Assembly: GCF_023073715.1 (NCBI RefSeq)
Contig: NZ_JADPKA010000018.1
Coordinates: 186,001-250,000 of the forward strand
Source of the DNA: Bradyrhizobium sp. 164
GTDB lineage: Bacteria; Pseudomonadota; Alphaproteobacteria; Rhizobiales; Xanthobacteraceae
Length of the DNA: 64,000 nucleotides
Direction: 5' to 3'
Position 1 is the stretch's first letter. Each line of letters opens with the position of its first letter. The position numbers and the translations under genes were made by a program. Shown piece after piece: positions 48,104-50,096 of this stretch. The notes below the pieces were generated by a model. It was not told the DNA's origin. It saw only the letters and a program-made list of their open reading frames with translations, and searched no databases.

Positions 48104-48892
48104 TCATGGCACCGCCGGCGATCGTCTCAGGCCAAGATCGATCACGCGCGTCCCATCATGCTCGCGAGAGCGCGGGCACTCCTCGGGCATGATCGCCTGG
48201 AGGCCGCCGAAACGGCGTTCGCGGCCGTGGAAAGCAGCGAGCGCTTCGGCGAGATCGCCCGCGTCGAATTCGGGCCACATCCGCTCTGTGAAGTGCAGCT
48301 CGGCATAGGCGCCTTCCCAGAGCAGGAAGTCCGACAGCCGCTTCTCGCCCGAGGTGCGGATGATGAGATCGACGTCGCGCAGGCTGGCCTCGCCGGTGAC
48401 CAGTTGCGAGAACGCCTCGCGGGTGAGGCTGGTCAGCGCCGCTGCCTTGGCCGCGGCATTGAGGATGGCATCGCGCGCGGAATAGTCGACGGCGATGCGC
48501 AAATGCAGCGTGCTGCCATGGGCGGTCGCCTCTTCGGCACGCGCGATCGCGCTGGCGATGCCGTCGGGCAGACGGTCGCGACGGCCGATCACGGTTAGGC
48601 GCACGCCGTTCTTGACCAGGCTCTGCACTTCATTGGAAAGATAGAAGCGCAGCAACGTCATCAGCGCGGCGACCTCGGCCTTGGGCCTTCGCCAATTGTC
48701 GGTGGAGAAGGCGTAGAGCGTCAGCGTGCCGATGCCCTGCTTTGGCGCGGCCTCGACGATGCGGCGGATGGTCTCGACGCCGGCCTCGTGGCCGCGCAGG
48801 CGCGACAGGCCGCGCCGCGTCGCCCATCGACCGTTGCCGTCCATGATGATGCCAACGTGAAGCTTGTCGTCGAACACAGGCTTACTTTGCAT
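48104..48892 (-). CDS. uppS: Polyprenyl (undecaprenyl) diphosphate synthase, orphan copy
   Basis: A cis-prenyltransferase that makes the C55 lipid carrier for cell-wall and other glycans. The catalytic D18 is in GIIMDGNGRWATRRG; later motifs are LTLYAFSTDNW, LIIRTSGEKRLSDFLLWE and ERRFGG. At 262 residues it is complete. A core uppS normally lies in the frr-cdsA-dxr-bamA group; here it lies behind a regulator and a membrane protein, so it is probably a second, conditionally used copy. The ATG at 48892 (GGAG eight bases upstream) lies inside the palindrome at 48884-48900. An earlier ATG at 48910 is less well placed. Confidence 0.92.
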   Translation of the reverse strand: MQSKPVFDDKLHVGIIMDGNGRWATRRGLSRLRGHEAGVETIRRIVEAAPKQGIGTLTLYAFSTDNWRRPKAEVAALMTLLRFYLSNEVQSLVKNGVRLTVIGRRDRLPDGIASAIARAEEATAHGSTLHLRIAVDYSARDAILNAAAKAAALTSLTREAFSQLVTGEASLRDVDLIIRTSGEKRLSDFLLWEGAYAELHFTERMWPEFDAGDLAEALAAFHGRERRFGGLQAIMPEECPRSREHDGTRVIDLGLRRSPAVP

Positions 48893-48900
48893 TACAAAGT
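48884..48900. promoter_or_regulatory. Candidate operator enclosing the uppS start codon
   Basis: A perfect 17-base palindrome ACTTTG-N5-CAAAGT whose spacer (taatg on the minus strand) contains the uppS ATG. The same type of sequence lies ahead of the operon at 49950-49966. In mRNA it would form a six-base-pair stem with the start codon in the loop. Either a protein-binding site or a translational hairpin is possible. Confidence 0.6.
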
Positions 48901-48919
48901 CTCCGGTCAAAAAAGGGGA

Positions 48920-49297
48920 TCAAGCCGAAGCGAAGCCGAGACGGCCGAGCGGCGGGGCCTCGCGGCCGGCGGCCTTGGCGGCGTCGCGCACGAGGCGTTC
49001 GAGCACGGCGAGATAATCGAGGAAACGGCGGCGGCCGGACTTGGTAAGACGACAGGTCGTGTGCGGGCGATTGCCCTCATAACCCTTGGTCACCTCGACG
49101 AGGCCGGCCTCCTGGAGCACGGCGATGTGCCGGCTGAGATTGCCGTCGGTGAGGCCGCAGAGCTGCTTGAGGTCGGCGAATGCCAGCCCCTTGGGGTGCG
49201 CCATCAACGAGGTCAGCAGGCCGAGCCTCGCCTTCTCGTGGATGACGCGATCAAGCCCCTCATAGGAGAAGGGCGCGCTGTCAGACTTCGACATCAT
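48920..49297 (-). CDS. Winged-helix transcriptional regulator (HTH_34/MarR-like)
   Basis: A 125-residue DNA-binding protein without a sensor domain. The helix-turn-helix reads LAFADLKQLCGLTDGNLSRHIAVLQEAGLV, followed by the wing with RPHTTCRLTKSGRRRFLDYL. This type (winged helix DNA-binding domain protein, HTH_34) is often encoded beside a membrane protein and represses its own operon. Its start overlaps the end of the membrane protein gene by 17 bases. Two adjacent ATGs are possible: GGAG is better spaced for the second (49294). uppS follows 27 bases after its stop. It is the best candidate to bind the ACTTTG palindromes. Confidence 0.9.
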   Translation of the reverse strand: MMSKSDSAPFSYEGLDRVIHEKARLGLLTSLMAHPKGLAFADLKQLCGLTDGNLSRHIAVLQEAGLVEVTKGYEGNRPHTTCRLTKSGRRRFLDYLAVLERLVRDAAKAAGREAPPLGRLGFASA

Positions 49298-49898
49298 GGT
49301 CTCCGGATGCGAAATACAGAATGGCAGCCATCACCGACTGTCCGATCACGAAGGGCAGACCCATGGTCCATGGCGACAGCATCTTGGTCTGGCTCGCCAG
49401 CGTCACCACCGCAAAGCCGGACACGAAATACCAGGCGCCAACGAGCGCGACGGTGCGCGGCAGCGTGCGGACGGAGGCGAAGATGCCGAGCGACACCAGG
49501 ATCTGCCACAAGCCGGGCAACAGCCACAGCGTTTCGGCCGCGAACTTCCACATCACCACCGCAAGCAGCACGCCGGCAGCGCCTGCCGGCAGGAACTGCT
49601 CGACCGCCTGGTAGATCATGGCATCGGCAAGACCGGAATGATGGCGGCGCGAGCGTGCGCGCATCTCGATCCCGATCAGGAGGCCGGAGAGCGCGGCGGC
49701 AATGAACCAGCCGGTGAAGAAGGCGAGCGGCTGGCTGGTGGGATCGCCGATCAGCCAGAATTGCAGGATCGCAGTGATGAGCGCGACGGCACCTGTCGCC
49801 GCCATAGTCGCCGGGCCGTAGCCGCGGAACGCGGTGCCCGCCGCGATCTGGCTGCGGATCGCCACGATATCGGCCAGTGCCTTGTCGAGATCGCGCAT
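49281..49898 (-). CDS. Membrane protein upstream of the regulator
   Basis: A 205-residue inner-membrane protein with about five or six spans. The first 25 residues (MRDLDKALADIVAIRSQIAA) form a polar helix, and a short basic loop IEMRARSRRHHSG lies near residue 80. I do not recognise an enzyme motif. Similar proteins of unknown function are often next to HTH_34 regulators. It is the first gene of the three-gene minus-strand cluster with the regulator and uppS. The ATG has no clear ribosome site; a TTG three codons upstream is possible. Confidence 0.82.
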   Translation of the reverse strand: MRDLDKALADIVAIRSQIAAGTAFRGYGPATMAATGAVALITAILQFWLIGDPTSQPLAFFTGWFIAAALSGLLIGIEMRARSRRHHSGLADAMIYQAVEQFLPAGAAGVLLAVVMWKFAAETLWLLPGLWQILVSLGIFASVRTLPRTVALVGAWYFVSGFAVVTLASQTKMLSPWTMGLPFVIGQSVMAAILYFASGDHDVEV

Positions 49899-49949
49899 TG
49901 GCAATGCCAAAATCTCGTTCCGCTCATGCTTCCCGGGATCATTCCCGCC

Positions 49950-49984
49950 GCTTTGTATTGCAAAGTATATGGCACTGCAAAGTA
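49950..49984. promoter_or_regulatory. Candidate operator ahead of the membrane protein/regulator/uppS operon
   Basis: CTTTG-N5-CAAAG at 49951-49965 (a near match to the palindrome at 48884) is followed by another half-site, TGCAAAGTA, at 49976-49984; the same half-site occurs at 49959-49967, 17 bases earlier. It lies 52-86 bases ahead of the membrane protein start, in promoter position, within the 198-base gap shared with the divergent protease gene. Confidence 0.6.
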
Positions 49985-50096
49985 AAGGCAAGCCCGAATG
50001 TCGCGGCAAGGAGATCTTGTCCGCGCGGGCAACTGCCGGTTGCGTTGCCGATCCCGCCACGGCTAAGATGCAGCCAAAGCATTCCCGGGGGCTGGT

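Follow-up and report, generated by a model that had tools for sequence, protein, structure and literature searches.

A candidate two-operator autorepressed cassette around an accessory prenyl synthase gene in Bradyrhizobium and other Alphaproteobacteria

Related systems

Dual-operator autorepression is a known kind of control. The arrangement considered here would be a variant of it, and comprises genes for a membrane protein (MEM), a small winged-helix regulator (REG) and an accessory cis-prenyl diphosphate synthase (UppS2). In the lac operon, one repressor binds an operator at the promoter and also an auxiliary operator (O2) inside the transcribed operon, which strengthens repression. A single repressor with one promoter operator and one intra-operon operator is likewise what is proposed for REG. 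Unlike the lac repressor gene, the REG gene lies inside its own operon, between the two sites, and a start codon falls within the internal one; nothing here points to looping.

Two further systems offer precedents for parts of the mechanism, by analogy and with no claim of family membership. C.Kpn2I is a restriction-modification controller protein that is reported to stall elongating polymerase in vitro, from a binding site within the coding sequence of its own gene (PMC6237814). A small regulator with a site in a transcribed coding region is thus on record, a precedent for a roadblock by REG. The site of C.Kpn2I is in the controller's own gene, whereas the candidate sites of REG are two, on the operon promoter and at a neighboring gene. 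In the SdpR-SdpI system of Bacillus subtilis, a small autorepressor can be sequestered by a polytopic membrane protein encoded next to it (PMC1626106); the small regulator gene adjoins a membrane-protein gene, as in the MEM-REG pair. Here too there are differences: REG belongs to the HTH_34 family, and the SdpR model NF033789 is absent from its matches at E 0.001; MEM matches no family in Pfam (E 0.01), NCBIfam (E 0.001) or PHROG; and the passages cited do not describe two-site control (PMC1626106). Within the collection searched, full-text searches for HTH_34 and PF13601 found no paper, and among the papers listed by other searches there is no description of a two-operator MEM-REG-uppS2 system.

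The locus and its proposed control

The cassette was located in a window of 64 kb, meaning the whole stretch of Bradyrhizobium DNA that was analysed (Table 1). A preliminary description had ACTTTG-N5-CAAAGT occurring twice, with one copy around the start codon of an uppS gene. Its coordinates for both palindromes and for the extra half-site are correct on re-reading of the sequence, and the uppS2 ATG (48892-48890, minus strand) does lie within site 2; the word itself is exact at site 2 and one arm letter short at site 1. Site 2 is 1066 bp downstream of site 1.

Table 1. Features of the MEM-REG-uppS2 cassette, in window coordinates
Feature	Position	Strand	Remarks
-35-like box CTTGCC	49987..49992	-	CTTGC exact in 70/80 genus sequences, 12/40 diverse sequences
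Extra half-site TGCAAAGTA	49976..49984	-	ACTTTG core 49978-49983; 17 bp upstream of site 1, inside promoter spacer
-10-like box TATACT	49964..49969	-	17-bp spacer; overlaps site 1; exact in 69/80 genus, 14/40 diverse
Site 1, front operator (candidate)	49950..49966		GCTTTG-TATTG-CAAAGT; one arm mismatch in this strain
MEM, 205-aa protein	49281..49898	-	Seven helices in the model, six of them membrane-length; conserved with REG
REG, 125-aa HTH_34 winged-helix regulator, proposed autorepressor	48920..49297	-	PF13601, 76.2 bits vs cut-off 27
T-tract (T6)	48909..48914	-	Ends 8 bp upstream of site 2
GGAG, uppS2 ribosome-binding sequence	48901..48904	-	Predicted from sequence; conserved as GGag
Site 2, internal operator (candidate) around uppS2 start codon	48884..48900		Exact ACTTTG-N5-CAAAGT
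UppS2, accessory cis-prenyl diphosphate synthase	48104..48892	-	PF01255; NCBIfam NF011412, 428.3 bits vs cut-off 334

The account we favor, and hold to be probable, is that the MEM-REG-uppS2 operon is autorepressed by REG at two operators, by a promoter block in front and by a roadblock at uppS2, with MEM as the sensor. We infer dimer binding, repression, the roadblock and the part played by MEM, which would run as follows. A REG dimer would bind ACTTTG-N5-CAAAGT at two places. Site 1 lies over the -10 box and the expected transcription start, and the partial site is 17 bp upstream of it, in the promoter spacer; REG bound there would exclude RNA polymerase. Site 2, which has no recognizable promoter of its own, would roadblock polymerase that had started at the front promoter, which would keep expression of uppS2 below that of MEM and REG. 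MEM, a membrane protein, would inactivate REG; it is the likely sensor because REG shows no ligand-binding domain, and the gene order also points that way. The earlier proposal was that one regulator represses the operon and blocks uppS internally; of this, comparison upholds the one regulator, the two conserved sites and the promoter-like front.

The pair of palindromes in the window is statistically weak on its own: at up to 2 mismatches there are 2 matches against an expectation of 0.50, and as many turn up in 6 of 100 shuffled sequences. In the whole genome, at the same tolerance, the pattern matches about as often as its reversed control (81 vs 83). The strength of the case is comparative. 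What is observed is the anatomy of the locus, the retention of both sites wherever REG is kept in the genus, cut loci aside, and selection at the DNA level on site 2.

Proteins of the cassette

The REG model consists of a winged helix and a long C-terminal helix, with no further domain (mean pLDDT 83). Against the ArsR/SmtB metalloregulator model NF033788 REG scores 31.4 bits, short of the 55 required. Its only relative in the PDB by sequence at E 0.01 is PH1061 (PDB 1ub9; E 1.8e-07), which is also the top fold match; this archaeal protein, 27% identical to REG in the fold alignment, goes by the name of hypothetical protein or regulator homologue. A fold search with MEM against the PDB gave no match at E 0.001.

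The same genome has a paralogous locus (L160:3034-3890) in which a small HTH_34-like protein is paired with a membrane-like protein of 184 aa. The palindrome is missing there even when 2 mismatches are allowed, and the comparison of MEM with that membrane-like protein is unconvincing (probability 6.9, E 0.005). Pairs of an HTH_34-like and a membrane-like protein may be a recurring module.

UppS2 is a second copy. A uppS of canonical type, at G000:C1:404377, is 46% identical to it; among the 39 genus genomes that have no cassette, 37 give a uppS match at 45-48% identity (canonical type), and the 2 with none are incomplete. If the canonical lipid-carrier uppS is the copy common to all genus genomes, UppS2 is not that copy. 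It is an accessory paralogue, and control of lipid-carrier supply is therefore not established; the suggestion in the preliminary description that the locus controls lipid-carrier synthesis was overdrawn.

Conservation within the Bradyrhizobium group

With the regulator as query, 110 loci were gathered for the genus set (30 + 80), of which L001 is the window itself; some strains are probably represented twice. By record title most are from Bradyrhizobium, together with some MAGs (three Alphaproteobacteria and one Hyphomicrobiales among these) and one Frankia record. The last of these, L080 (Frankia sp. RB7), has a cassette of the Bradyrhizobium type with a regulator 94% identical, and is probably mislabelled or contaminated.

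Both palindromes flank the regulator at up to 2 mismatches in 109 of the 110 loci, the window included, and the remaining locus (L090) is cut. That a small winged-helix regulator lies between the palindromes, as first described, thus holds across the group. Among 80 distinct sequences (the window and 79 loci; L090 was dropped as cut), the arms carry 1.92 bits per position at the front and 1.90 bits at the uppS site, and the flanks 0.31-0.61 and 0.66-0.77 bits, respectively.

Sites and regulator can also be compared genome by genome. A regulator orthologue is found in 107 of 146 genus genomes (E at most 1.4e-60). When a centre-constrained pattern was tallied at up to 1 mismatch, with matches counted per strand, at least two matches on one strand occurred in 104/107 genomes with a REG orthologue vs 0/39 without; of the latter, 10 have at most one match per strand and 29 have none. 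The reversed control pattern occurs twice on one strand in 12/146. The three exceptions among the REG-bearing genomes are G040, G045 and G097; in G040 the uppS site has 2 mismatches. Within the genus, on these sequence counts, cassette and sites are present or absent together. In one genome (G011) the cassette occurs twice on a single contig (L161, L162), each time with both sites.

The front promoter is best kept in the genus: in the diverse set (40 sequences, L237 included), exact CTTGC, exact TATACT and the half-site are seen in only 12, 14 and 22, respectively. TATACT is within 1 mismatch in 31/40 of the diverse sequences; ACTTTG of the half-site, at up to 1 mismatch and at the same offset, is present in 75/80 genus and 22/40 diverse sequences. 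The candidate operator thus appears to overlap the promoter of REG's own operon, as is expected of an autorepressor.

Conservation beyond the genus

REG orthologues occur in 29/248 genomes of the family, 35/397 of the order and 5/357 of the class, sets that overlap and include the genus. The non-genus set comprises 17 + 24 + 3 genomes with flanks and one plasmid locus (L275), 45 loci in all, 3 of them outside the order. The set is not selected by motif: 16 of the 45 were first found by motif, yet all are found by the regulator model too.

Of the 44 loci in which site 1 could be looked for (280-bp window), 42 have it within 2 mismatches; L236 and L275 fail, and L265 is cut. Site 2 is present at the same tolerance in 36/45 (230-bp window); control windows of 230 bp in the 45 loci contain such a match in 2/1228 cases. 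All three genomes from outside the order have both sites. The nine loci in which site 2 is beyond 2 mismatches (L223, L232, L233, L234, L236, L258, L260, L261 and L264) retain REG and uppS2, and eight of them (not L236) have site 1 within 2 mismatches; the internal site is therefore dispensable in some lineages. Absence of the palindromes from orthologous clusters, which would have counted against the original proposal, is accordingly not seen in the genus, and is seen for site 2 in these 9 of the 45 loci from other genera.

The gene uppS2 follows REG in 40 of 42 loci (41 of the 45, and L237 of the genus). In the other two, L154 and L158, a DUF4153 gene stands there instead, and the second palindrome is retained. 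Without uppS2, the internal palindrome, the T-tract and ATG CAA AGT all persist (L154:3000-3250, L158:3034-3290); the short frames from that ATG resemble each other in the two loci and perhaps encode a small protein.

One alternative gives the internal site an auxiliary role: REG bound there would loop to REG bound at the promoter and so strengthen repression of the whole operon, in place of a block to elongation into uppS2 alone. Both sites have the same palindrome word, and the spacing stays within 1030-1087 bp in the genus and 1025-1234 bp in 34 other loci with both, which would suit such a loop. Within those ranges, however, the spacing varies base by base with no evident helical phase; site 2 occupies the start region of the third gene, and survives in loci that lack uppS (L154, L158); and REG is small, with no evident part for tetramerization in its model. 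Looping is on these grounds an unlikely reading, if one still to be reckoned with.

Site 2 at the uppS2 start

The position of site 2 over a start codon allows selection on the DNA word to be separated from selection on the protein. Codon 2 of uppS2 is CAA in 79/80 genus sequences and codon 3 is AGT in 69/80; over the 200 codons from codon 11 on, CAA serves for 27 of 234 Gln and AGT for 12 of 725 Ser. Because these codons are otherwise rare, it is the DNA word that is kept, and not the protein alone. Among the 36 non-genus second sites, ATG is at the same place in 32; the others have ATA (2), TTG (1) or GCG (1). The palindrome persists with GTG at the start position (L237), with a TTG triplet there (L225) and with a shifted ATG (L263); it persists also with no start codon inside (L189, L259), the start codon of L189 being downstream of the palindrome. 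On the Aureimonas plasmid pAU20b, the annotation (PLSDB) begins uppS at the site-2 ATG.

The same evidence bears on the supposition that the palindromes arose by chance, or are kept by protein constraint and common descent only. Such words are indeed not over-represented in the window or the genome taken alone; but they are conserved across genera and orders, the control windows almost never contain one (2/1228), and rare codons are retained at site 2. That supposition is scarcely credible.

A different suggestion is that the uppS2 palindrome acts in RNA, as a start-codon hairpin that would hold translation down, whether or not a ligand takes part. A 7-bp mRNA hairpin over the AUG is indeed predicted, and the 71-nt stretch folds with z -1.73 (9/200 shuffles as good or better), a value that is unexceptional. 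Moreover, the same word is found at the front of the operon, where it overlaps the -10 box of the promoter, and in L189 the palindrome persists with the start codon downstream of it. An RNA element is improbable on this showing.

Very little probability attaches, too, to site 2 as a repressed internal promoter of uppS2. A TTGACC word does lie just upstream of it in this strain; yet no conserved -10 box was seen in the 70 bp upstream across the 80 genus sequences, where the T-tract and the ribosome-binding sequence are conserved. At the level of sequence, site 2 has the properties that the proposed roadblock would call for: a candidate regulator site in a transcribed region, with no conserved promoter seen upstream of it in those 80 sequences.

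The T-tract adds a further element. It was surveyed in 117 loci, the 80 of the genus and 37 diverse loci whose site 2 has no more than 3 mismatches. A run of at least 4 T is near site 2 in 106 (79/80 genus, 27/37 diverse), and ends exactly 8 bp before site 2 in 103 of those 106; in L231, L266 and L267 there are A-T tracts at its position. In L189 it keeps its distance from the palindrome, although the start codon has shifted. A fold before the tract with z below -2 is found in 7 of the 27 diverse loci (L185, L186, L187, L188, L189, L230 and L235); the genus mean is -0.28 (plain letter shuffles), and on that mean a plain intrinsic terminator before uppS2 is discarded for the genus taken together. 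One doubtful extension of the roadblock joins T-tract and site 2 into an operator-coupled terminator: polymerase halted by REG at the site would have its RNA-DNA hybrid over the U-tract, and the transcript would be released.

Neighboring genes and the possible regulon

The genes that accompany the cassette vary; because flanks differ in length, absences may reflect cuts. A B12-radical-SAM gene, of which two examples were tested and both exceed the NCBIfam BchE cut-off, is matched in 22/80 genus-group loci and 14/42 diverse loci, and among the matches listed with positions it is directly after uppS2. DUF4153 is matched in 4/42 diverse loci; a gene like that for linalool dehydratase/isomerase is present in 2/42, and again in L280 and L281. 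The order on plasmid pAU20b of Aureimonas sp. AU20 (L275:4403-8591) is MEM, REG, uppS, linalool dehydratase/isomerase-like, DAGK, a gene order that suggests a specialized isoprenoid pathway.

In G200, the radical-SAM gene is unlinked (C1:3441053), away from the cassette (C1:1564076, L267). It carries (L153:1453-3070) a CTTGC-N17-TATACT promoter, the half-site and an operator, with another operator 37 bp on; its frame is split into two overlapping frames, and may therefore be broken or carry a sequencing error. This module, taken with the same gene after uppS2 elsewhere, is an argument for a regulon, and would be consistent with control by REG. Where the radical-SAM gene is part of the operon (five loci), the 300 bp ahead of it contain no palindrome, even with 3 mismatches allowed. 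At seven extra sites in the genus (up to 1 mismatch, among the matches listed) there was no radical-SAM or DUF4153 match, and no shared gene was seen in the ORF lists; a larger regulon in the genus is not supported by these seven.

Significance

For an HTH_34 regulator, the comparison provides a candidate operator together with its promoter. It also sketches a compact regulon, in Bradyrhizobium and further Alphaproteobacteria, with an accessory prenyl synthase at its centre. If the operator-coupled terminator were real, the repressor would make of a weak tract a terminator that can be switched, and this would separate the regulator genes from an accessory isoprenoid pathway: UppS2 with the BchE-like radical-SAM protein, or with the linalool dehydratase/isomerase-like protein and a kinase, or with the DUF4153 protein. 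A candidate operator with a start codon inside it, its sequence preserved by the use of rare codons, offers a clean natural system for studying a repressor in the path of a passing polymerase.
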